Assembly (NCBI GenBank): GCA_027619975.1
Contig: JAQCGX010000018.1
Span: 1 to 60,385, forward strand
Origin: Nitrospinota bacterium
Lineage (GTDB): Bacteria; Nitrospinota; Nitrospinia; Nitrospinales; VA-1
Length of the DNA: 60,385 nucleotides
Reading direction: 5' to 3'
Made by a program: the position numbers and the translations under genes. Each line of letters begins with the position of its first letter. The first letter of the stretch is position 1. The notes beneath the pieces are model-generated. The model worked only from the letters and a program-made list of their open reading frames with translations. It did no database searches and had not been told where the DNA came from. Below are positions 1,920 through 13,038 of the stretch, piece by piece.

Positions 1920-3200
1920 TTGTTTTCTAACGAATCGGGAGTTCGGCAGGCGGAAATTATTGCCATCGGCAATGAAGTCGTTAGTGGCTTGATTCAGGAC
2001 AGCAACTCACGGTTTCTGAGTGCCCGCTTGCAGTCCATAGGAGTCAATGTGTCCCGATTCACAGCTGTCGGAGATGATAAAACGACGATTCAGACCGTGG
2101 TTCAGGAAGCCCAGGAAAGAGTGGGCATTGTCATCGTCACCGGCGGGTTGGGTTCGACCCATGACGATATCACCAAGGCCGTTCTTGCCGACTTGTATAA
2201 GTCAGGGTTCAAAAAGGACGAGCAAGTCGCTAAAATGCTTACGGGGTTCTTTAAAACCAGGGGCAGGGAAGTGCCTGAAGGGGTCCAAAGCCAGTGGAAC
2301 GTGCCCGAGGCCGCGACGGTTCTGTTAAACGAGAAAGGCACGGCCCCCGGATTGCTGTTTGAAAAAGAAGGCAAAATGCTTTATGCCCTGCCCGGCGTTC
2401 CGCTGGAGATGGAATATTTGTTCGAAAAATATATCGAACCTAAGCTGTCGTCCCCGGATGGGTTTAAAATATGGCATCGGGTGCTGCTCACCACGGGACT
2501 TTCCGAAGCTGATCTCTGGTCCCTGATTGGTTCGGTTGCGCCCTTGGAAAAGCTGGTGACGGTGGCATCGTTGCCGTCTCACCTTGGGGTCCGCATTCGA
2601 TTGTCCGCCCTGGCAAAAGAGGAAGTTGAGGCGAAGGCCCGGTTGGATGAAGCGGATAACCTGATAAACACAAAAATTGCAACCCATCTATTCGGCAGAG
2701 ATGATGAAACCCTCGAAGGGATAGTGGGCGAGCTTCTCCTGCAAAAAAAACAGACGGTCGCCGTGGCCGAATCGTGCACCGGTGGGTTGATCGGCCATCG
2801 CCTGACGCAAATTTCCGGAAGTTCCGAGTATTTTCTGGAGGGGGCGGTCACCTATAGTAACGAGGCCAAGCATAAGCGACTGGGCGTGGCGGAAGAACTT
2901 ATAGTAGAATATGGCGCGGTGAGTGAGGAAGTTGCGTTAGCCATGGCCGAGGGGATTCGCAAAAGCGCCGGAACCGATTTTGGTGTGGCCGTCACCGGGA
3001 TCGCCGGACCCACAGGCGGGACCGAGCAAAAACCGGTGGGGCTGACATATATTGCCATGAGCGATGCGGGCCATACCGAATGCCGGAAATACCTTTTTCA
3101 TCAGGACCGTGGCCGCAACAAGGAGAGGGCCGCCCAGGCCGCTCTCGATCTTCTGCGTTGTCATCTCATGAAGCAAAAAGGTCTTGACGGGTTTAAATAG
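1920..3200 (+). CDS. cinA: CinA-family protein (MoCF-like domain plus NMN amidohydrolase domain)
   Basis: The N-terminal 170 residues show the molybdopterin-binding fold used by CinA (AIGNEVVSGLIQDSNS, TGGLGSTHDD, ALPGVPLEM). The C-terminal 165 residues are the CinA amidohydrolase domain (AESCTGGLIGHRLT, GISGxxGPTGGT-like GIAGPTGGT). The family includes nicotinamide-mononucleotide amidase and ADP-ribose pyrophosphatase activities used in pyridine nucleotide salvage. The length of 426 is normal for the two-domain form. The start is TTG, preceded by GAAGGAG, so a rare start codon is supported by a good ribosome site. Confidence 0.92.
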   Translation: MFSNESGVRQAEIIAIGNEVVSGLIQDSNSRFLSARLQSIGVNVSRFTAVGDDKTTIQTVVQEAQERVGIVIVTGGLGSTHDDITKAVLADLYKSGFKKDEQVAKMLTGFFKTRGREVPEGVQSQWNVPEAATVLLNEKGTAPGLLFEKEGKMLYALPGVPLEMEYLFEKYIEPKLSSPDGFKIWHRVLLTTGLSEADLWSLIGSVAPLEKLVTVASLPSHLGVRIRLSALAKEEVEAKARLDEADNLINTKIATHLFGRDDETLEGIVGELLLQKKQTVAVAESCTGGLIGHRLTQISGSSEYFLEGAVTYSNEAKHKRLGVAEELIVEYGAVSEEVALAMAEGIRKSAGTDFGVAVTGIAGPTGGTEQKPVGLTYIAMSDAGHTECRKYLFHQDRGRNKERAAQAALDLLRCHLMKQKGLDGFK

Positions 3201-3250
3201 GTTTATTCTATTGATAAGAGGAAGTGGATCAATGAAAAAGGAGTTTTCAA

Positions 3251-3646
3251 ATGAGTAAAGTCGGTGAATACATGAGTACCACGATTTATTCTGTAAGCCC
3301 GGATGAGCTTGCCTATGATGCCTTCGAAAAAATGAATAAAAACAATATTGGCGCGCTTTTAGTCAAGGATGGTGAAGAGTATGTTGGGGTCTTTACCAAA
3401 ACGGATTGGATGTTGCTGGTTTTAAGGGGAGAAAGCGACCCCAAGACTTTGCAGGTTTCCGCGTTGATGACAAAACTTAAGTATACGATCGATCGGGATC
3501 AAACCATTGCTTCAGCCTGCGCCATTATAGAAGAAAATCGTATTCGCCATCTTCCAGTGACCAAGGATAATAAAATTGTGGGGATGTTTTCCGTCAAGGA
3601 TTTGGAAAAATATTATCTGCACTTGCATAAAAAAACAGATTTTTAA
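3251..3646 (+). CDS. CBS-domain pair protein
   Basis: The 131-residue protein consists almost entirely of two CBS motifs. The first covers about residues 5-60 (MSTTIYSVSPDE to GVFTKTDW). The second covers 68-125 (ALMTKLKYTIDRDQ to GMFSVKDL). Such stand-alone Bateman modules bind adenosine nucleotides and act as energy sensors or partners of other enzymes. It has a GGAG ribosome site eight bases upstream of its ATG. It lies between cinA and a zinc-ribbon membrane protein on the same strand and may be co-transcribed. The partner is not evident. Confidence 0.85.
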   Translation: MSKVGEYMSTTIYSVSPDELAYDAFEKMNKNNIGALLVKDGEEYVGVFTKTDWMLLVLRGESDPKTLQVSALMTKLKYTIDRDQTIASACAIIEENRIRHLPVTKDNKIVGMFSVKDLEKYYLHLHKKTDF

Positions 3647-3699
3647 TTTCTGCATGGTTCAATAATGAACCCTGAAGGAATTGGGAGAGGAACGTAACT

Positions 3700-3897
3700 A
3701 TGACCCCGTGCCGTGAATGCGGAAAAGAAGTTTCCGAAGATTTGCGGAATTGCCCTCATTGCGACACCCCGGTAAACCCGAATATTCCCAATTATCCCAC
3801 CTTTGGCGGCAGTGGCTGGGTCATGAGCGTGATCGGAATTCTGTTCATCACGTTGATCGTGGGGCTGCTTGTTTTAATGTTTACGTTTCAAGATTGA
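3700..3897 (+). CDS. Small zinc-ribbon membrane protein
   Basis: The 65-residue protein has an N-terminal zinc ribbon (CRECG at 4-8 and CPHC at 18-21) followed by one hydrophobic helix at about residues 41-62 (VIGILFITLIVG). The architecture predicts a zinc-binding head anchored in the inner membrane. The ribosome site is GGGAGAGGA, at good distance from the ATG. Function is unknown. The ribbon resembles DUF/zinc_ribbon_2 proteins found widely as short membrane factors. Confidence 0.7.
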   Translation: MTPCRECGKEVSEDLRNCPHCDTPVNPNIPNYPTFGGSGWVMSVIGILFITLIVGLLVLMFTFQD

Positions 3898-3960
3898 AAT
3901 TTCCCAGAGCGGACATTTCATAACGCAGCCTGGATAGAAAAAGTCAGGCTGAGGAGCAAT

Positions 3961-4086
3961 ATGTTTAAACGGTTCTCTTCCCGTACCAAAGTACGTTACA
4001 TGAAGATAATTCCCGAGTATTACAATTCTTTTAAGCCAATTTCCCGCATATCCGGTTTTTTGCGGAGACAGGCCAACTTTATATAA
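3961..4086 (+). CDS. Possible 41-residue basic small protein
   Basis: An ATG at 3961 is preceded by GAGGAG at optimal spacing and opens a 41-codon frame ending TAA at 4084. The product is rich in Arg, Lys and aromatic residues (MFKRFSSRTKVRY at the start). The stop lies 14 bases before the GTG of the M42-like peptidase, so it could be a leader peptide or a remnant of a larger gene. No family was recognised. Support is only the ribosome site and position. Confidence 0.3.
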   Translation: MFKRFSSRTKVRYMKIIPEYYNSFKPISRISGFLRRQANFI

Positions 4087-4100
4087 CTCACGCGACTCCA

Positions 4101-5156
4101 GTGCTAAGTAACGAATTTATTGACCTACTAAAATCTATTATAAGGCATCCCAGTGTCGTGGGTGCGGAGCACTCATTCTTTAGAGTGTTGCAACGTGAAC
4201 TTGAAGAAAGGGGTGCGAATGTCACCTGGTACGAAGGGTTACTGGTCGCTCAGGGCAACAAACCCCTTAGCATCATGTTTTCTGCGCATATCGATCGGCA
4301 TGGCTTGATTTGCACAGGCCCAAAAGAATTTCAGTACGCTGCATTCCTTTCTGCCAACAGGACGGACCTTTTAAATAATTCTGTTTCTGAAGAATTGATG
4401 ACAAAGGTGACCGGGCGATTTCAGTCCGACCCAGTATATGCCTACGAGCCGTGGTCTGGTGTCTACCGGGGAAATGGCATTATTAAACGTTCCTATGTCT
4501 GCGAGTATAGAAACAACCTGATTTTCGAAATAGAAGGGCTTGGTGATGTTGTTGCCGGAACGCCTATCGCGTTTAAGGATAAACTTAAAGTCAATAACGG
4601 CCGACTGCAAGGACAATTAGATAATGTATTGACTGCCGCAGTGCTTGTGCATTTATTCAGTCTCGGTTTTCAGGGCACCGCATTTTTTACCGCACAGGAA
4701 GAGTCTGGCAAAAGCTGGCGTTATTTGCTGGAATGGTTTCGTCGATTTGGTGGATCGACCAATCGACTTTTCGTAGTGGATACCAGTCCTTTTCCCAGTA
4801 TTGAGACAGCGAATAACCAGATGCTGGTTCTCAGAGAAAAAGATGCCAATGCCAGCTTTAACAGGGAGGCCACGAGTCTGATTGAAGATTTATGCCGAAC
4901 AAATAATATCAGCTTTTTGTACAAAGACAGGTACGTTGAAGAAGATAACGCACGACTGTTGAGTCTGGGTGAAAAACCCCGGTCCGTCGGTAGCACGGAA
5001 ATGGGTAGAATAATTATGGGTTCAAATGGACTGGTTGACGGCACCACAATACAGATACCCACAACCGGATATCACACCATGGACGAATCCGCATCACGTG
5101 AATCTGTTGATGCATTTATTCGTATATTGGCAACAATATCGAAGAAAAGTGAGTGA
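4101..5156 (+). CDS. M42-like zinc aminopeptidase/deacetylase-type hydrolase
   Basis: The 351-residue protein carries an ordered set of M42/M20 metal-ligand motifs: SAHIDRHG (His and Asp, about residue 58), GQLDN (bridging Asp, about 172), QEESG (catalytic Glu pair, about 199), VVDTSP (about 226) and a late GYHTMDE (last His ligand, about 326). Families of this type are cytosolic metallopeptidases with two zinc or cobalt ions. The start is GTG without a clear ribosome site, which could indicate coupling to the short ORF upstream. It stands at the edge of the accessory stretch. Exact substrate is unknown. Confidence 0.75.
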   Translation: MLSNEFIDLLKSIIRHPSVVGAEHSFFRVLQRELEERGANVTWYEGLLVAQGNKPLSIMFSAHIDRHGLICTGPKEFQYAAFLSANRTDLLNNSVSEELMTKVTGRFQSDPVYAYEPWSGVYRGNGIIKRSYVCEYRNNLIFEIEGLGDVVAGTPIAFKDKLKVNNGRLQGQLDNVLTAAVLVHLFSLGFQGTAFFTAQEESGKSWRYLLEWFRRFGGSTNRLFVVDTSPFPSIETANNQMLVLREKDANASFNREATSLIEDLCRTNNISFLYKDRYVEEDNARLLSLGEKPRSVGSTEMGRIIMGSNGLVDGTTIQIPTTGYHTMDESASRESVDAFIRILATISKKSE

Positions 5157-5210
5157 TTGTTTTTCAGGCGCCGTACGAACGGCAATGATTACTCCAGTCC
5201 TCAAGCAGGC

Positions 5211-5348
5211 TCATTTGAGTGTTTTAAAGGCTTGAAATAAACCGTCTCGGTAATGCCCTGCTTGTTCGATGTCGAAGGTTTCAATGGTGTAATCCGCGAT
5301 GGCGGCAAGATCGTTTTTAGCATCCTTGGTGAGGATATATTTAGCCAC
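5211..5348 (-). pseudogene. Truncated ParE-type toxin (45 residues)
   Basis: A GTG at 5348 sits inside the last codons of the parD-like gene (GTGGCTAA) and opens a frame matching the ParE/RelE N-terminus: YILTKDAKNDLAAIADYT, then EQAGHYRDGL. ParE toxins normally run about 95 residues. Here the frame stops with TGA at 5211 and the next 55 bases do not resume the family. The toxin has therefore lost its C-terminal half, including the region that forms the active fold. The overlapping start is typical of parDE operons. It was too short to be flagged as an ORF. Confidence 0.7.
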
Positions 5349-5589
5349 TGCGTTTCAGATGTCTCTGTTCCGCCTCCTTCCAGATATCCTCCGCTGTGTG
5401 CTCGCTGATTCCGCTGGCTTCGGCCTTATCCAGCATATTGCGTAATTCGACGATCTTGCTTTCCCGTTCCTGATCCTGGCGCACCAGGTGGCGGAAATAT
5501 TCGCTGGTGTTTTCAAACTGCCGGGTTTTCATTGCGGACTGGATGTAGTTGCCCATCTCATCGGGCATGGTGATTGAAAATTTTGCCAT
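5341..5589 (-). CDS. ParD-like ribbon-helix-helix antitoxin (orphan)
   Basis: The open frame extends upstream to 5811, but the real gene very probably starts at the ATG at 5589, preceded by AGGAGG eight to ten bases away. The resulting 82-residue protein begins MAKFSITMPDEMGNYI and has the RHH motif (F-S-I-T-M strand, then EYFRHLVRQDQ helix) followed by an acidic-basic C-terminal arm that would wrap a ParE toxin. Its toxin partner (5211-5348) is truncated, so this is an orphan antitoxin or DNA-binding autorepressor. Confidence 0.8.
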   Translation of the reverse strand: MAKFSITMPDEMGNYIQSAMKTRQFENTSEYFRHLVRQDQERESKIVELRNMLDKAEASGISEHTAEDIWKEAEQRHLKRSG

Positions 5590-5619
5590 CGTGTAAGTCC
5601 TCCTTTTAACTTTATTGGC

Positions 5620-5639
5620 CACAGGCTGGAAAGCCTGTG
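5620..5639. repeat. REP-like palindromic hairpin
   Basis: CACAGGCT-GGAA-AGCCTGTG forms a perfect 8-bp stem with a 4-base loop. The same core (GCACAGCCT-TTCC-AGGCTGTGC) occurs at 60340-60361. Read on the minus strand it translates as AQAFQPV and fuses the reverse-transcriptase remnant to parD in a single frame, which is an artefact. Dispersed hairpins of this kind are usually moved by REP-associated (RAYT/IS200-like) transposases, none of which is in the window. Confidence 0.65.
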
Positions 5640-5654
5640 CTACCACTGTCCCGA

Positions 5655-5811
5655 GGGCTAACCCAAGTCCTCGGGGCTCAAAGCGGTACCCCAGAAAATC
5701 AAATCCTTTTTCTATTTTCCCGATGTAGGTTTTATCGGGGTGCTTTTCCAGATTGAGTTCCGCCAACGTTTGATTGACGTTCCGCACCGCTTCGCGCAGT
5801 TTCCACTGCAA
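5655..5811 (-). pseudogene. Reverse-transcriptase fragment (group II intron-like)
   Basis: The minus frame from 5811 encodes about 50 residues ending the palm/thumb region of a group II-type reverse transcriptase. The recognisable part is LEKHPDKTYIGKIEKGFDFL followed by GYRF. The catalytic YADD box and everything before it are missing, and the frame runs into the REP-like hairpin. It is a decayed insertion. I cannot tell whether it came from an intron-encoded protein or another RT class. Confidence 0.6.
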
Positions 5812-5921
5812 ATTGGCTGATCTGCAATGTCCGCTTTGGGTTGTGACTTCAACCGGTCAACGCAATCGAAGGTCCGTTTTTCCGTTATAACTGTTATTTC
5901 ACAGAATTTGAGTTTTCATTT

Positions 5922-6215
5922 TCAAACCAACGTTATATGAAGCTCACGGCCCACGGCGCGGGCGGCTTTTGACATGGTAGCGAGTGTTACATTTGAAACG
6001 GCAGGGTCGAGAAATCGATCCAGTTGCCTTCTGCTGGTTGCCATTTTCTTCGCCATCTCTGTTTTAGAAATTTGGTTGTCGGACATAGCCTTGCGAATCT
6101 GATCCGCCAGAATTTCTTTAAGGGTCAGATGTTCGCATTCCTCAAGCATTCCCTGTTCATCGAGAAAATCATCAAAAGATGATCCAACGTGAGGGTTTTT
6201 GGTTTTCTTGCTCAT
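5922..6215 (-). CDS. XRE-type helix-turn-helix antitoxin (HigA-like)
   Basis: The 97-residue protein has a helix-turn-helix at residues 45-80 (ISKTEMAKKMATSRRQLDRF) and the leader SSFDDFLDEQGMLEE that is common in antitoxins paired with Gp49/HigB toxins. Its start codon overlaps the toxin stop by four bases (ATGA), the usual toxin-first HigBA arrangement. It should neutralise the toxin and repress the operon. The C-terminus (GRELHITLV) is complete. Confidence 0.8.
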   Translation of the reverse strand: MSKKTKNPHVGSSFDDFLDEQGMLEECEHLTLKEILADQIRKAMSDNQISKTEMAKKMATSRRQLDRFLDPAVSNVTLATMSKAARAVGRELHITLV

Positions 6216-6487
6216 TGCTCTACCTCCTTTTTCCTCTTCTTCGCGAGGTCTAAATCTGCTTGCGGTGTCTTCTGGGACTTTTTCACAAAGCCATGCAGGA
6301 GCACCATTTTATTATTGGTTATCAGGAAAATGACTCGCGCTATGCGTTTATCTGAAATGTCGCTACGGACTTCATAAAGCCCATGTCCCAGAGGTTTGCT
6401 GTAAGGCATACCAATCGGCCAGCCAAATTCAACCTTTTGAATGTCCTTGCCGACAATTCTCCGATCTTCCCTATTCAGTTTCAACAA
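6212..6487 (-). CDS. HigB/Gp49-type toxin, apparently N-terminally truncated
   Basis: The 91 codons match the core of phage-derived Gp49-like HigB ribonucleases: VEFGWPIGMPYSKPL, then GLYEVRSDI, then MVLLHGFVKKSQKTP. Full-length relatives (about 110 residues) begin with a strand and a GREPVREWL-type helix, and that part is absent. In-frame sequence upstream hits a TGA a few codons before the TTG at 6487, and the end of the rhomboid gene lies 24 bases away. The module therefore probably lost its promoter and first 20 residues to a recombination. Toxicity is uncertain. Confidence 0.65.
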   Translation of the reverse strand: MLKLNREDRRIVGKDIQKVEFGWPIGMPYSKPLGHGLYEVRSDISDKRIARVIFLITNNKMVLLHGFVKKSQKTPQADLDLAKKRKKEVEQ

Positions 6488-6511
6488 CGCGATTCAGGGG
6501 ATTCTGGGTTT

Positions 6512-7156
6512 TCAAGCACGCATTCGGCGGAACGGCAGAATCAGAAGCATGCCCGCTAAAAACCCTCCGATATGAGCGAACCACGCGACCCCTGCGCCTC
6601 CCGATTGGGCCATGGCGTTTCCCACCTGAATCAAGACCCACAAACCGAGAAGAAACAAAGCGGGAACGCGGATGATGGTGACAAAAATGAATAAAAACAC
6701 CAGTGTTTTGATTCTCGCAAAGGGGAACAGCACCAGATAGGCGCCCAGGATTCCCGATACCGCACCGCTGGCGCCGACCATGGGAATCACTGAATTGAAA
6801 TCGGTGGCGACATGCCCGAGGGCTGCAATGGTCCCGCAAACCAGGTAGAACAAGATAAAGCGGAATTTCCCCAGGATGTCTTCAATATTATTCCCGAAGA
6901 TCCAGAGATAAAGCATGTTTCCGGCTAAGTGCAAAAATCCAGCGTGCAGAAACATCGAGGAATAGATATTTGGATAAAACGTGACGGGGGCGCGGACCAG
7001 TGCGTAGGGAACCAGGCCATATTCGTTAAATATCATGTCCGGTGGAACGGAAGCGTTGAAAAATGTCTGGAAATATATAAAAACATTGGCTCCGATGGCC
7101 AGTAGGGTGATTATCGGGAAGTTGCGCGTGGGAATGTCGTCGCCCAGAGGGATCAT
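6512..7156 (-). CDS. Rhomboid-family intramembrane serine protease
   Basis: The 214-residue polytopic protein has the rhomboid signature in order: HLAGN (His76-Asn80 region), GASG with catalytic Ser130, and AHIGG with catalytic His185. Six hydrophobic segments fit the minimal bacterial rhomboid. The family cleaves substrates within or near the membrane. It is divergent from the NACHT-FGE gene, with 153 bases between them. The last codons abut the truncated HigB gene. No substrate is apparent. Confidence 0.93.
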   Translation of the reverse strand: MIPLGDDIPTRNFPIITLLAIGANVFIYFQTFFNASVPPDMIFNEYGLVPYALVRAPVTFYPNIYSSMFLHAGFLHLAGNMLYLWIFGNNIEDILGKFRFILFYLVCGTIAALGHVATDFNSVIPMVGASGAVSGILGAYLVLFPFARIKTLVFLFIFVTIIRVPALFLLGLWVLIQVGNAMAQSGGAGVAWFAHIGGFLAGMLLILPFRRMRA

Positions 7157-7309: not shown

Positions 7310-9730
7310 ATGAGTGAAACAAATGATTTGCCCGTCCCGATCCATGTTGGTGATGAATTGCCCGTCGTTCAATCGAAGCTCGAGGAATCTCAGGGTTGGG
7401 TGATAGAAACCTTTCGGAAACACCAGCTCAAAGCGGTGTCCGCCTGGATGGATGCAACAGTAGGCGAGGGGAGGGGACGGAAAAACGTGATCCCCCAGGT
7501 TTTGCTGGATACCAACCCCATTGATCACCGCCAAAGTCTGCAAGAGCAGGTGTTTCCTTCGCCCAGAGCCATCCATGAGGATCTTTTAGAGATCAACAGT
7601 CTCAAGTTCTTGCTCCAGGCTGGGCTGGGTATGGGCAAAACCACTTATCTTAAAGGGTATCAGGAGCAACGGCTGAAGGGAGTCGCGCATCCTGTTTATC
7701 CCCTGCCATTGTATTTTCATTTGGGCGACCTGCCAGCCCGGACGGGATTCGCCAAATTTTACGAAACCATATATCAAGAAATCCTGCAAGTTGTTTTATT
7801 GGAACAGGAAGAAGTTGACGGACTGGAACTGGATGAGGACCTTCTTCTCGGAACGATAGAAATGATCTTCAGAACCGGGAAAATCCAGTTTCTTCTTGAT
7901 GGCTTGGATGAGCTGGACCCTGAGGATCGGTTCCACGTCTATTTCGAAACCTTTGTGGATGACAATGCGTTCAACAGTAGTTTTGTGGTGCTGGCGACGC
8001 GCAAGTTCCATCTGGGATCCCTGGCGGCGGATACGGTGGTTAAAAAAGGGCAGGACTCTGCGTTTCAGATGGAGGTTCAGGAAGTCGATGAGAAAGATCG
8101 AAACTTTTTTCTCGGCGATGCCAATAAAAACAATGTGTTGAAAACAATTTTCGCTAATTTCCCTGAGCTGGGAAATACGCCTCTGTTATTGAAGATGATC
8201 CATACGCTTGAAGCGAACGAGCTTTTGGAGGGAGTGGAAAAACGCGGGGATATATATGCGGCCTATTTCGATCATATGCTGGCGCAATTTCAGGAAGCCG
8301 ATCAGGAGAACAACCCCGAGAACCCCGTTCAATGGTTGATGAAAGTTTCATTCGACTTGTTTCAAAAGGAACAGGCGCAACGGTTCCAGGATGTCGAACT
8401 GGGGTTTTCCAAGGAAATCCTGAGAGATTCTAAGGAAGCTCTGATAATTCTGAATGAAAAAGGGGAAGAAGTGAGTTTTGCTGACGGGCTGGATTGTGTT
8501 TTTCAGCAGACCGCCATGCGCTTTGAATACCGGCATCCTTCCTTTCAGGAATTCTTTGCCGCCCGATATCTGGCCGCCCACCCGAATTGGCAGGAGCTTG
8601 TGCACGAACACTGCCGTCAGGAACCCTGGGAAGAGGTCATCCGGTTTTTGGCGGGAATGGTTCCCGGTGATGAGCTGTTCGAGATTCTTCTCGAAGAAGG
8701 CGCGGTATTTTTGGCGGGCAATTGTTTGTGGGAGACGAGAGACCTCTCCAAGGAAAAATCGCTACTGGTCAATCATCTGCTGAAGTACCAGTGCAAGGAA
8801 TCCCTGCCGCAATTTTCCAAGTGTCGCCTGGTGCAAACGCGTGATGTGATTGAAGCGGTGGACCGGGAAGTCCTTTTACAGCGTATTGCCGATATTCTCA
8901 AACGCCATAAAAGGGACAGCCGGATATTGTTCGCGACCCTGGAATTGCTGGTGTCCTTATACGATATGGATCTTCATGCCCTGGTGGATACTCAGGATTT
9001 TGAACCGCTCCAGAATATAAAGGAGCTGACGGACTTCCTGGCTGAATCCAGAGACCCGGAACAGGTGAAACCCTCTCTGATAAAGAGATGGAGCGAAATG
9101 GTGACCGTTCCCGCCGGGAAGTTCATTTATCAGGATGAAAAGGATGAAGAGGACCAGATCAATCTTAAGGAATATTCCATTATGAAGTTTCCGGTGACCA
9201 ACATCCTGTACCGGGCGTTTGATCCCAACCATCGACACCGTTTTTCCAAGTATTCCAATGAGGAGGATCAGCCAGTCATCGGCATCAATTATTTTGAAGC
9301 CCTGGTGTTCTGCATCTGGCTGGGGAAACGTCTGCCCATTGAGAAGGAATGGGAAAAAGCCGCACGCGGAACCGATGGACGGGATTATCCCTGGGGAGAG
9401 GCGTTTGGTTATCAAAACGGCTACAACAATACCTGCGATTATGTGATGGGACGAACCAATGTTGTGGATGAGTTTGAGCAAGGGATTTCTCCCTACGGGT
9501 GTTTTGATATGGCCGGTAATGTTTGGGAATGGTGCGTTCAACATCATGCATCCAAACACTCGACCCAAAGGATCGTTCGCGGAGGGTCCTGGCTCAACTA
9601 CCTGGTCCACTCCAAATGCAAGTTCCGTAACTCTTTTGATCCTTCCGAGCGGCATCTTGCGGTGGGATTTCGTTGTGTTTCAGGCCCCCAGTTCACTGAA
9701 ATTGAGGAAGAGGATGACGAAGACGACTGA
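7310..9730 (+). CDS. NACHT NTPase fused to an FGE/SUMF1-like C-terminal domain
   Basis: The 806-residue protein has three parts. Residues 1-95 form an unrecognised N-terminal segment. Residues 98-480 are a NACHT STAND ATPase, with Walker A GLGMGKTT (105-112), Walker B FLLDGLDELD (about 193-203) and an arginine-containing sensor (VVLATRKF). A region containing SFQEFFAARYLAAH precedes a helical section. The C-terminal 200 residues are a formylglycine-generating-enzyme/C-lectin-like domain (VPAGKF, YPWGEAFG, GCFDMAGNVWEW, IVRGGSW, VGFRCV). STAND ATPases with such sensor ends are known in bacterial immunity and signalling. FGE domains can be catalytic or ligand-binding. The start has no good ribosome site. 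A terminator-like hairpin follows. Confidence 0.88.
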   Translation: MSETNDLPVPIHVGDELPVVQSKLEESQGWVIETFRKHQLKAVSAWMDATVGEGRGRKNVIPQVLLDTNPIDHRQSLQEQVFPSPRAIHEDLLEINSLKFLLQAGLGMGKTTYLKGYQEQRLKGVAHPVYPLPLYFHLGDLPARTGFAKFYETIYQEILQVVLLEQEEVDGLELDEDLLLGTIEMIFRTGKIQFLLDGLDELDPEDRFHVYFETFVDDNAFNSSFVVLATRKFHLGSLAADTVVKKGQDSAFQMEVQEVDEKDRNFFLGDANKNNVLKTIFANFPELGNTPLLLKMIHTLEANELLEGVEKRGDIYAAYFDHMLAQFQEADQENNPENPVQWLMKVSFDLFQKEQAQRFQDVELGFSKEILRDSKEALIILNEKGEEVSFADGLDCVFQQTAMRFEYRHPSFQEFFAARYLAAHPNWQELVHEHCRQEPWEEVIRFLAGMVPGDELFEILLEEGAVFLAGNCLWETRDLSKEKSLLVNHLLKYQCKESLPQFSKCRLVQTRDVIEAVDREVLLQRIADILKRHKRDSRILFATLELLVSLYDMDLHALVDTQDFEPLQNIKELTDFLAESRDPEQVKPSLIKRWSEMVTVPAGKFIYQDEKDEEDQINLKEYSIMKFPVTNILYRAFDPNHRHRFSKYSNEEDQPVIGINYFEALVFCIWLGKRLPIEKEWEKAARGTDGRDYPWGEAFGYQNGYNNTCDYVMGRTNVVDEFEQGISPYGCFDMAGNVWEWCVQHHASKHSTQRIVRGGSWLNYLVHSKCKFRNSFDPSERHLAVGFRCVSGPQFTEIEEEDDEDD

Positions 9731-9892: not shown

Positions 9893-10065
9893 AATTTCAA
9901 TAAGTTAACAGAATTGTGGTGCTCAGGTAAGTTTCCATTTTTGGGGAAATTTCAGGGAGTGATGTGTTCAAACTTCCTATTTTCCAAATAGATTTACCTT
10001 GGATGACTGTTAGGTATGCATAATTTTTTGAATTTTCAATCAGAACTCATTTGGAGATCAGGTAT

Positions 10066-11418
10066 TTGAATATCAAGGGACTCGCAAAAAAAATCCTTTG
10101 TATTGATGAAGACCCCGCACTGTCCGGAAAGGTGAGGGAAATTATCAATCACGCTTTTGATTCCAGTGAGGTGCAAATATTTCATTCGCTGACGGGTGAA
10201 CAAGGGCTCGATCAGATGCTCAAGATGCCAGCCGATATTGTTCTTTGCGATATTCAATTGTCCGGAAAAGACGGGTTCGATATATGCCGGCAAATCCGCA
10301 AGAATCACCCGCAATGTGCCATCATTTTGATGTCGCCCTATGAACCGGAAACTGATGTCGCCATCAAGGCCAGAGAAGCCGGGGCGGATTCTTATTTTTC
10401 AAAACCCGTTAAGAAAGGCGAATTTCTATTTGCGGTGAATTCTATTTTACGGGCCGCCCGGCAGGAAAATGCCATTTACGAAAAAAACCAGCAATTGGAA
10501 GAATCTCTGGAGCAATTGAAGGCGTTTCATAAAAAAGTGGCCGACTTGAATGTTGAGCTTCAGGTGGACAAGAGACGGCTCGGGGTCAATCTCCAGGAAG
10601 TGACGGAACTGAACTACCAATTGGAAGAAAAGAATTTACAGATTTCCTCTATGATCGAAGAATTGGGCCACCGGTTTGAATCCACAGAGTCCCTGATCGC
10701 CAGCATCATAGAGATGCACCAGGCCGACCACCGCGGACATTCGGAGCGGGTTGCGAAAATTTCCACGTTTATAGCCGAAAAAATGCAGCTCACCGATTAT
10801 CAAACTCGCAATATCAAATCCGCGGCGCGTTTGCACGAGTTGGGAATTGTGGCCCTGCCTTCGAAGGAAAAAAGGTTGGAAGCGATGAACGAGGGGAAAA
10901 GTCGATCACGAACCAACCATTCCCTTGTGGGGGAGATGCTTCTCAAAAGTTTTCCGGGATTCGAGCTGACTGCCAACATTATTCGGCATCTGCATGAAAA
11001 TGTCGATGGGTCCGGGTTTCCCGACAACCTCTATGGAGACCGGATTCCTATTGGCTCCAGAATCGTGTCTGCCGCCAGTTATTTTGACCATTGCAGAATT
11101 TTAAACCCGGATTCCAGCCCATCAGAAACCTTCGCGGTTACCGAACAACAACGCGGGAAATTTTTCGATGAAGATGTTTTGAATTTCCTGGGTGAGTATG
11201 TGCAAACCCAAATGCAGTCCGGTGACGAAAAAACTCTGGATTGCACTGTATTTGCACTGGTGGAAGGGATGGAGTTGGCTTCCAATATTTATTCAGAGTC
11301 GGGAATCAATATCCTGATAAAGGGGACGGTTCTGAATGCAGATATTCTCAGTAAAATTTTAAATTTTCACGCCGTCGATCCCATTGCCGGCACCATAAAA
11401 ATTAAACAACCGACTTAA
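10066..11418 (+). CDS. Response regulator with REC and degenerate HD-GYP domains
   Basis: The receiver domain spans about residues 5-125: acidic pocket IDED, phosphoacceptor Asp in LCDIQLSG, and KP in YFSKPVKK. A coiled coil (about 135-200) leads to an HD-GYP-like domain (about 205-380). That domain keeps DHRGHSERVA, TNHSLVGEML and DGSGFP. However, the metal-binding HD has become HE (ARLHELG), the HH pair is LH, and the late Asp of the xxDxFD box is Ser/Ala, so phosphodiesterase activity is doubtful. The start chosen is TTG at 10066, with GGAGATCAGG upstream; an earlier TTG at 10051 overlaps that ribosome site. motA begins four bases after the stop. Confidence 0.87.
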   Translation: MNIKGLAKKILCIDEDPALSGKVREIINHAFDSSEVQIFHSLTGEQGLDQMLKMPADIVLCDIQLSGKDGFDICRQIRKNHPQCAIILMSPYEPETDVAIKAREAGADSYFSKPVKKGEFLFAVNSILRAARQENAIYEKNQQLEESLEQLKAFHKKVADLNVELQVDKRRLGVNLQEVTELNYQLEEKNLQISSMIEELGHRFESTESLIASIIEMHQADHRGHSERVAKISTFIAEKMQLTDYQTRNIKSAARLHELGIVALPSKEKRLEAMNEGKSRSRTNHSLVGEMLLKSFPGFELTANIIRHLHENVDGSGFPDNLYGDRIPIGSRIVSAASYFDHCRILNPDSSPSETFAVTEQQRGKFFDEDVLNFLGEYVQTQMQSGDEKTLDCTVFALVEGMELASNIYSESGINILIKGTVLNADILSKILNFHAVDPIAGTIKIKQPT

Positions 11419-11421
11419 ACT

Positions 11422-12222
11422 ATGGATATAGCAACTTTAGCAGGAATTGTAGCGGGAATAGGCCTGGTTCTGTGGTCTATTCTAATGAACAGTGGCCTGG
11501 ACTTGTTTTGGAGTGCTCCTTCAGCCATGATCGTAATGGGCGGGACGCTGGCGGCCATATTTATTGCTTTCCCGATGAATGAAGTTTTCAAGGTGATGGG
11601 ACTGTTTGTTCGGGTATTTCTGGTCAGAAAATCCGATCACTATGTACTCATTCAATCCATGGTGGACGTTTGTAATGTTGCCCGTAAAGGCGGCGTTCTG
11701 GCCATTGAGTTGAAGCTCAAGGATATCGATAACGAGTTTCTGAAAAAAGGGTTGGAGATGACCGTGGATGGAAAAGATGAAGCCACGGTAAATGCCTTGC
11801 TGAAAAGGGAAATCAAACAGATCCTGAAATCTCATAAGGATGGTTGGGAAATTTTCAATCAAATGGGTGCTTTTGCCCCGGCTTTTGGCATGGTGGGAAC
11901 TTTGATCGGTTTGATCCAGATGCTTGCCGATTTGTCCGACGTGAATTCCGTTGGACCAAAAATGGCCATTGCCTTGATCACCACTTTTTACGGTGCGGTT
12001 TTGGCGAACCTGTTCTTCATTCCCATGACCGTCAAGTTGAAGCGTCGCAGTGCCACGGAAACCCTGGAAATGAATCTTGTCCTGGAAGGCATTTCCTACA
12101 TTCGCAAAGGTGTGAACCCGCGATTTATGCAGGATGTTCTGGAAAACTATCTTGATTCGTACCACGGGAAAAAGTCCAACAAGGAAGACGACAAGGGCGG
12201 TAAAACCCCCGCCAAGAAATAA
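11422..12222 (+). CDS. motA: Flagellar motor stator protein MotA
   Basis: The 266-residue protein has four hydrophobic segments: two at the N-terminus (LAGIVAGIGLVLWSI and the PSAMIVMGGTLAA helix) and two in the MotA/ExbB domain (GAFAPAFGMVGTLIGLIQML and the FYGAVLANLFFIPM helix). A cytoplasmic loop lies between the pairs. With MotB it forms the ion channel that drives the flagellum. The basic tail is rich in Lys and Asp. It begins four bases after the REC-HD-GYP stop and ends seven bases before motB, so the three genes are co-transcribed. Confidence 0.95.
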   Translation: MDIATLAGIVAGIGLVLWSILMNSGLDLFWSAPSAMIVMGGTLAAIFIAFPMNEVFKVMGLFVRVFLVRKSDHYVLIQSMVDVCNVARKGGVLAIELKLKDIDNEFLKKGLEMTVDGKDEATVNALLKREIKQILKSHKDGWEIFNQMGAFAPAFGMVGTLIGLIQMLADLSDVNSVGPKMAIALITTFYGAVLANLFFIPMTVKLKRRSATETLEMNLVLEGISYIRKGVNPRFMQDVLENYLDSYHGKKSNKEDDKGGKTPAKK

Positions 12223-12228
12223 CTGATT

Positions 12229-13038
12229 ATGGCTGAAGAAGAAAAGAAAAAAGAGCCGGATCCGGCTGAAGAAGAAGACGAAGAGGAGGAGGACGGGGCG
12301 GAAGGGATCCCGGCATGGGTCATGACCTTTGCCGATCTGGTCACCCTGTTGATGGTATTCTTCATTCTTTTATTCGCCATGGGGTCTATTGAGGACGAGA
12401 AATGGCGGTTGATCAAGGAATCCCTCAAGAGCGCTTTGGGTACGGATGATCTTCCTGAAGCCGGAACCCGTCAGGGACTCGATGTCATGACGATGAAGGT
12501 GAATGAAGAGAGTGTCAACGCCATTGATGAAGTTGGGGCGATGGTGTCTAAGGAAATTGAGGAAATTGCCTCCGAAGTAGAAGAGTTCGTATATAAGAAC
12601 AAGCTGGCGGGACAGGTCGAGGTTTCTTCTGATGAAAGAGGAGCGATCATCACCATTTCCGATACGGTACTATTTCCATCTGGCCAGGCTCGAATGAGTC
12701 GTGAAGGCGCCAAAGTCATCAACCAGGTCTTTGATCTACTCAAACAATTTCATTACGATGTGAAGATTGAAGGGCACACGGACGACTCCCCCATCCATAC
12801 GGAAAGGTTTCCTTCCAATTGGGAGCTGTCCGCTTCCCGAGCCGCTGATGTGGCACGCATGTTCGTCGAAGCGGGTTTTTCGCCTGAAAATCTTTCCATA
12901 GAGGGGTTGGCTCAGTTTCGTCCTAAACTGCCAAATAACAACGCGATTAATCGCGCCGCCAACCGCAGGATTGAGATTGTTTACCAGCGCGGAAGTATCC
13001 GCAAACAAATGGTGGATGTTTTACGGAGAGGCGGGTAA
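12229..13038 (+). CDS. motB: Flagellar motor stator protein MotB
   Basis: The 269-residue protein starts with a highly acidic cytoplasmic tail (a run of Glu and Asp at residues 10-25). One transmembrane helix (WVMTFADLVTLLMVFFILLF) carries the essential Asp of the FADL motif. The C-terminal half is an OmpA-like peptidoglycan-binding domain (VKIEGHTDDSPI, NWELSASRAADVARMF, NRRIEIVY). It anchors the stator to the wall. The extended acidic tail is unusual but the functional residues are intact. Confidence 0.95.
   Translation: MAEEEKKKEPDPAEEEDEEEEDGAEGIPAWVMTFADLVTLLMVFFILLFAMGSIEDEKWRLIKESLKSALGTDDLPEAGTRQGLDVMTMKVNEESVNAIDEVGAMVSKEIEEIASEVEEFVYKNKLAGQVEVSSDERGAIITISDTVLFPSGQARMSREGAKVINQVFDLLKQFHYDVKIEGHTDDSPIHTERFPSNWELSASRAADVARMFVEAGFSPENLSIEGLAQFRPKLPNNNAINRAANRRIEIVYQRGSIRKQMVDVLRRGG

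Follow-up and report, generated by a model that had tools for sequence, protein, structure and literature searches.

A single-copy NACHT-FGE gene belongs to the core genome of a marine Nitrospinota order and may encode an NLR-type receptor for an endogenous ligand

Bacterial relatives of NLR proteins are usually regarded as accessory, fast-changing defence genes, and the gene at positions 7310 to 9730 of the window (the whole stretch of DNA analysed, 60,385 nucleotides from a Nitrospinota bacterium) raises the question of whether that view fits this NACHT ATPase, which ends in a domain of the formylglycine-generating enzyme (FGE) fold. Proteins in which a NACHT domain or another NTPase is joined to an FGE domain (also called FGS) at the C-terminus are widespread and predicted to be immune, often with N-terminal EADs or effectors, in multiple copies, and often with diversity-generating retroelements, or DGRs (PMC8195603; PMC10907252). 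The organisms studied here are related to Nitrospina, which are major marine nitrite oxidisers (PMC3578206), and our literature search found no paper on the NACHT-FGE gene in Nitrospina. The open reading frame is intact, from ATG to TGA, and its parts are as follows.

7310..9730, + strand: NACHT-FGE gene, 806 aa (ORF and Pfam; orthologues in 57/64 genomes of the order)
7310..7594, + strand: residues 1-95, conserved N-terminal segment, predicted helix 28-50 then LLDxNPxxxRQSLQExVFPxPR (model and alignment A3)
7595..9079, + strand: residues 96-590, predicted NLR-type module with NACHT, HD1, winged helix and HD2-like helices (Pfam, profile, model, Foldseek)
7622..7645, + strand: Walker A GLGMGKTT, residues 105-112 (sequence; invariant residues in 38 orthologues)
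7889..7915, + strand: Walker B FLLDGLDEL, residues 194-202 (sequence; 38-orthologue alignment)
8534..8563, + strand: HPSFQEFFAA motif, residues 409-418 (alignment), which we take to be of the type typical after a NACHT ATPase core
9092..9679, + strand: FGE/C-lectin fold domain, residues 595-790 (PF03781, E 2e-41; model and Foldseek)
9578..9676, + strand: RGGSW...GFRC segment, residues 757-789, corresponding to the part that varies in DGR targets, largely fixed in orthologues
9680..9727, + strand: tail, residues 791-806, with an acidic end in most orthologues (orthologue alignment)

As judged from its sequence and structural models, the 806-aa product is an NLR-like STAND ATPase with an FGE/C-lectin domain where repeats usually stand: an NLR-type NACHT module (residues 96-590) is followed by the FGE/C-lectin fold in complete form (591-790). 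The Pfam NACHT family (PF05729) matches residues 107-239 at E 6.5e-6 and 26.5 bits, 0.2 bits below its cut-off of 26.7, and a profile of 38 orthologues matched NLRC4 in the PDB at E 3e-6 and, separately, FGE-fold proteins. The P-loop residues G107, G109 and K110 and the Walker B residue D197 are invariant in the 38 orthologues, which excludes a chance resemblance; D200 is kept in at least 90% of them, with E in its place in one orthologue (L067). The full-length AlphaFold2 model has a mean pLDDT of 74.6, mostly high at residues 20-590 and of low confidence at the FGE end. In Foldseek searches with this model, NLRC4, NOD2 and NLRP3 were matched across some 550-590 columns, the best of them at E 3e-12; the TM-scores are modest at about 0.3, as expected with shifted domains, and Avs4 was also among the matches (E 3e-4). 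Similar to these animal NLRs, the protein is predicted to have a NACHT-HD1-WHD-HD2 arrangement; unlike them, it has an FGE domain where they have leucine-rich repeats, and it lacks a CARD or PYD. Of the features of a NACHT-clade STAND NTPase, Walker A and B with their acidic residues are present, and so, by sequence profile and model, are the NACHT fold, the winged helix and the HD2-like helices. A preliminary description of this DNA, made from the sequence alone, had read the gene as a NACHT ATPase fused to an FGE/C-lectin domain and had pointed to the same Walker motifs and a complete C-terminal domain, all of which is borne out by Pfam, the profile, the models and the invariant ATP-site residues. 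The part that diverges fastest is residues 241-430, after the ATPase core, at 38% mean identity to the window protein.

The C-terminal domain is covered end to end by the FGE-sulfatase family PF03781 (residues 595-790, E 2e-41), and a second model, of residues 590-806 from an alignment enlarged with paralogues (pLDDT 88), matched CalU17, SUMF2, FGE, EgtB and the Treponema variable protein TvpA in Foldseek. Among these, SUMF2 and TvpA are members of the fold that are not known to have FGE activity. The catalytic motif in solved FGE structures is GGS[YF]LCHxSYC, as compared with GGSW[LMF]NYxVx[SA]KC in the NACHT-FGE protein, so that the copper-cysteine positions are occupied by N763 and by S or A at 768 in all 38 aligned orthologues. 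For human FGE, the PDB contains C336S and C341S mutants, which mark the two cysteines that have been studied. A further cysteine, C770, is invariant in the orthologues. The domain is also the most conserved part of the protein: 60 of its 200 columns are invariant in the 38 orthologues, and its mean identity to the window protein is 72%, against 38-58% in the other parts. A search of the genome for a sulfatase substrate returned a single PF00884 protein, which lacks a C/S-x-P-x-R motif. The fold of a formylglycine-generating enzyme is therefore present, while its copper cysteine pair and a motif-bearing sulfatase substrate are absent, and on these two grounds the C-terminal end most likely serves for binding, without the activity of an FGE enzyme. 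The copper-site check that had been proposed for this domain accordingly found both cysteines missing, and the proposal that the FGE end senses a ligand is supported as far as binding is concerned, although ligand sensing itself stays a prediction. Both an active FGE and a sulfatase partner were rejected as candidates. The genome (G000, 2.9 Mb) has 26 further places with FGE domains (loci L108-L127), an expansion also seen in relatives; many of these proteins start with a signal-peptide-like sequence, and the FGE cysteine pair occurs in none that has a readable motif.

The N-terminal segment had been put forward as a possible effector. It is well conserved, with 67% mean column identity over residues 15-95 (alignment A3), and the AlphaFold2 model shows one clear main helix (28-50) and short elements that run up to the NACHT domain. 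Residues 1-95 have no family match in Pfam, NCBIfam or PADLOC, and with neither such a match nor an effector fold in the predicted structure, an effector was rejected. A profile of residues 15-95 run against 21 genomes found this gene only, the remainder being noise at E > 0.005, so there is no duplicated EAD-type adaptor within these genomes, and an EAD-like adaptor common to other proteins was likewise rejected. The simplest interpretation is that the segment would give its output through a dissimilar partner.

To establish how the gene is distributed, a profile of the NACHT part (A2, residues 1-590) was run against 77 genomes of the phylum, 64 from the order and 13 others; the profile was used on this phylum, and other genomes were reached through close pattern matches. 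An orthologue is present, as a single copy, in 57 of the 64 genomes of the order, including all 36 that are at least 85% complete. The seven genomes without the gene are 57-84% complete, two of them (G020 and G051) carry fragments at contig ends, and in a few MAGs the gene copy is cut at a contig end or interrupted. Outside the order, none of the 13 genomes from the phylum has an orthologue, a weak match in G059 being a distinct DUF4062-NACHT-FGE protein. Searches of 72,556 plasmids, of 50,697 phage records and of IMG/VR returned no relatives of the NACHT part, the last being a scan that reaches only candidates sharing short conserved peptides, and horizontal spread was rejected on these results. 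In 23 genomes, the NACHT-FGE tree and a tree of MotA, RibD, RibE and RibBA have 19 of 20 splits in common without any strongly supported conflict, and their patristic distances correlate at r 0.975. NACHT-FGE orthologues have about 53% identity to the window protein, somewhat less than RibD (59%) and CinA (57%) show in the same genomes. The Nei-Gojobori method was applied to close pairs, with dS near saturation in some; most pairs have a dN/dS of about 0.05-0.12, and the FGE domain has about 0.03-0.06, while a single very close pair gave 0.32 from small counts. Throughout the order this is a core gene kept in single copy, inherited vertically and under strong purifying selection.

The setting of the gene is conserved as well. 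The preliminary description had it standing alone in a decayed accessory region, close to toxin-antitoxin and RT remnants. Around it in the window lie the following features.

1920..3200, + strand: cinA-like gene, just upstream of the rhomboid and NACHT-FGE genes in most relatives (synteny)
5341..6487, - strand: lineage-specific insertion outside the conserved locus, with an RT scrap and orphan ParD at 5341-5811 and an HTH/Gp49 pair at 5922-6487 (domain search; synteny)
6512..7156, - strand: rhomboid-family gene, divergent conserved neighbour (PF01694, E 1.6e-34; synteny)
10051..11418, + strand: response regulator with an HD-GYP-type HD domain, conserved downstream neighbour (PF00072 and PF13487; synteny)
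11422..13038, + strand: motA and motB, conserved neighbours, then ribD-ribE-ribBA-ribH (sequence; synteny), the names being ones that we presume from general knowledge of such sequences

The same order, cinA, rhomboid (reverse), NACHT-FGE, HD-GYP response regulator, motA, motB, ribD, ribE and ribBA, is found in about 40 loci, so that the gene, far from standing alone, has a neighbourhood conserved across the order. The interval between cinA and the rhomboid gene is about 20-400 bp in most relatives and is expanded in the window's genus. The remnants sit in that interval, past the rhomboid gene, and a decayed accessory region is thus not what surrounds NACHT-FGE: the remnants are real and next door, but they lie outside the conserved locus, and the HTH/Gp49 toxin-antitoxin-like pair (5922-6487) looks intact. 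The insertion spot as a whole (3201-6511) holds a CBS-like protein, a peptidase-like gene, the RT scrap with the orphan ParD, and the HTH and Gp49 pair, and a related ParD is found in the same cinA-rhomboid position in L038. The RT scrap, at the start of ORF 5341-5811, has RT_UG4 as its best PADLOC match (E 2.9e-18 over 55 aa) and is called a group II intron maturase by NCBIfam. In G039, NACHT-FGE is followed immediately by another gene with an FGE domain, which is antisense to it and has 31% identity (L069 4830-5459, in the orientation used for the synteny comparison). When the same locus was sought in outgroup genomes via the HD-GYP gene, only generic HD-GYP matches were retrieved.

A direct comparison for the FGE end is available in the same genome, where contig C47 of G000 carries an intact-looking DGR (L119, G000:C47:3500-8500) with all of its parts on the - strand.

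L119 2484-3527, - strand: DGR target, an FGE-fold protein with a signal-peptide-like start (domain search)
L119 2022-2369, - strand: bAvd, PF22296, E 2e-19 (Pfam)
L119 961-2322, - strand: RT, PF00078, E 3.5e-23 (Pfam)
L119 about 838-952, - strand: DGR template repeat (repeat comparison)

Template and variable repeat differ at 20 of 33 A positions, as against 1 of 34 C, 0 of 28 G and 0 of 17 T positions (1 of 79 for non-A positions in total). The residues diversified in L119 align with NACHT-FGE residues at about 763, 764, 767, 772, 774-777 and 780-785; of these, 763, 764, 774, 776 and 780 are invariant in 16 orthologues and 767, 777 and 781 nearly so, while the pocket-rim positions 782-784 vary. 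The face of the fold that is mutated by the DGR is therefore hypermutable in the L119 target and largely fixed in NACHT-FGE. The genome holds no second copy or template near-copy of the 3' end of NACHT-FGE, and the sole RT found in it pairs with another target gene; NACHT-FGE as a DGR target was rejected on these grounds. Our literature search found no paper connecting Nitrospinota with DGRs.

What the protein does was weighed against three other readings. The least probable by far, and one to which we give hardly any weight, is that it is a formylglycine-generating or related oxidase joined to an ATPase: CalU17, SUMF2 and FGE are its closest folds and C770 is invariant, but N and S/A stand at both FGE cysteine positions in every aligned orthologue and the genome's only PF00884 protein is motif-less. 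Nor do the Pfam matches of the protein include DinB, the domain that provides the metal-binding His in EgtB-type enzymes. It is improbable, although less so, that NACHT-FGE is a regulatory ATPase acting with the HD-GYP response regulator, MotA/MotB or the rhomboid protease, for example as an envelope signalling scaffold. The gene order conserved across the order would fit such a partnership, but the gene is kept without an adjacent motA in L053, L054 and L061 and without an adjacent rhomboid gene in L063, L065, L066, L067 and L069, and a strict functional dependence on those neighbours is thereby made less likely; in L080 and L081 some 2.4 kb separate it from the HD-GYP gene, and the adjoining riboflavin genes show that neighbourhood by itself says little. 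In the latter two loci (genus g15), the distance is made up of extra sequence between NACHT-FGE and the HD-GYP gene. Both HD-GYP and motA are missing beside NACHT-FGE in L053, L054 and L061, where the rib genes remain; L053 and L054 still hold a remnant of motB, and the motor genes have apparently been lost repeatedly at these loci. A Zorya reading of MotA/MotB was rejected: PADLOC scores MotB against ZorB, but MotA has 266 aa, no long tail and no PADLOC match.

A stronger rival, although we still consider it unlikely, is a core anti-phage sensor whose FGE end would read an invariant feature of phage or infection and whose NACHT module would trigger abortive infection, acting either via the N-terminal segment or via a partner in the host. 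Recognition of conserved phage folds is known from Avs proteins, and the overall plan of NACHT-FGE is that of bNACHT and Avs proteins, including the Avs4 match in Foldseek. Moreover, NTPase-FGS fusions are predicted to be immune (PMC8195603; PMC10907252), and clade-14 bNACHTs have no readily discernible effector yet protect against phage (PMC12169576), so that a missing effector is no argument against defence. The phylum also contains effector-bearing accessory relatives, all with PADLOC matches.

L128:345-3122: DUF4062-NACHT-FGE (PADLOC match)
L129:2345-5806: TIR-NACHT-WD40 (PADLOC match)
L130:4796-6814: KAP-FGE (PADLOC match)

Against this, the NACHT-FGE gene itself has no PADLOC match, its conserved locus has no defence neighbours, it is present in every near-complete genome of the order and does not show the patchy, mobile distribution expected of anti-phage bNACHT and Avs genes, its phylogeny is congruent, no copies were found on mobile elements, and its presumed recognition end is the most conserved part, the opposite of an arms race. 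The preliminary description had inferred defence from the accessory setting, had suggested a search of homologue neighbourhoods for defence genes, and had named homologues in a conserved non-defence neighbourhood as the outcome that would speak against its inference; with no defence genes in the conserved locus, fixed synteny, housekeeping neighbours and purifying selection strongest in the FGE end, this outcome is largely what is seen, and the defence role is weakened.

The explanation that we favour, at about an even chance, is a core NLR-like switch with a frozen FGE sensor for one constant ligand. The protein would be a cytoplasmic ATP/ADP switch whose catalytically dead C-terminal FGE/C-lectin domain would bind that ligand, which we infer to be the cell's own product or a stimulus unchanging over evolutionary time. 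Ligand binding would free the module of NACHT and winged helix from its resting state, ATP exchange would then permit oligomerisation, and the N-terminal segment (about residues 30-95) would relay the signal to a partner whose gene lies at another locus. The plan of an NTPase with an FGE domain, which in other lineages belongs to accessory conflict systems, many of them diversified, would have been taken into the core genome of the order and its sensor frozen. Against this explanation stand several points: the bacterial NACHT proteins that have been characterised serve, as far as we know, either defence or a lysis system that was co-opted; the effector-less clade-14 bNACHTs protect against phage; residues 241-430 diverge fastest; some rim positions (782-784) vary; and there is no strict neighbour partner.

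Comparison with known systems places the gene within a known NTPase-FGE architecture, of which the lack of an effector and of diversification and the fixation in the core genome are the new part. Similar to the STAND/NACHT NTPase-FGS conflict systems (eLife 2021, PMC8195603) and the DGR-diversified NACHT/nSTAND1-FGE sensors (PNAS 2024, PMC10907252), it has a central NTPase (there NACHT, or nSTAND1, MNS or KAP) and a C-terminal FGE/FGS lectin-fold domain. In those systems, which are found above all in multicellular bacteria, the N-terminus carries an EAD or effector, there are several copies, and a DGR is often present; in NACHT-FGE, neither an effector nor an EAD can be recognised, and the gene is present in one copy, lacks a DGR link and is order-wide with a frozen sensor. 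A gene pair of bDLD3-STAND-FGS and bDLD3-TIR has been described in 'nitrospinae' (PMC8195603), which is adaptor-bearing and differs in arrangement. The clade-14 bNACHTs (PMC12169576) likewise have a NACHT module without an evident effector, but they end in a SNaCT domain where NACHT-FGE has its FGE domain, and their defence is demonstrated. The fold is shared with SUMF2, CalU17 and TvpA, none of which is joined to an NTPase, TvpA being diversified by a DGR. As a precedent for an NLR-like ATPase in the cell's own programme, the CARD-NLR-like LypABC controls the release of gene transfer agents in Caulobacter (PMC13236601), although it comprises three genes with peptidases and a CARD, none of which are present at the NACHT-FGE locus.

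Taken further, and more tentatively than the switch itself, NACHT-FGE may be an NLR-type NACHT-lectin receptor domesticated as an order-defining core gene of marine Nitrospinota, its sensor face frozen to an endogenous ligand, serving house-keeping surveillance and not phage defence. The L119 FGE protein provides an internal contrast in the same genome: the two proteins share a fold and a face, which is hypermutable in the L119 target but frozen in NACHT-FGE. A single-copy gene in the same place in all near-complete genomes of the order, with a recognition end more conserved than its ATPase, is a clean case in which to ask whether NLR-like receptors serve the physiology of their own cell.
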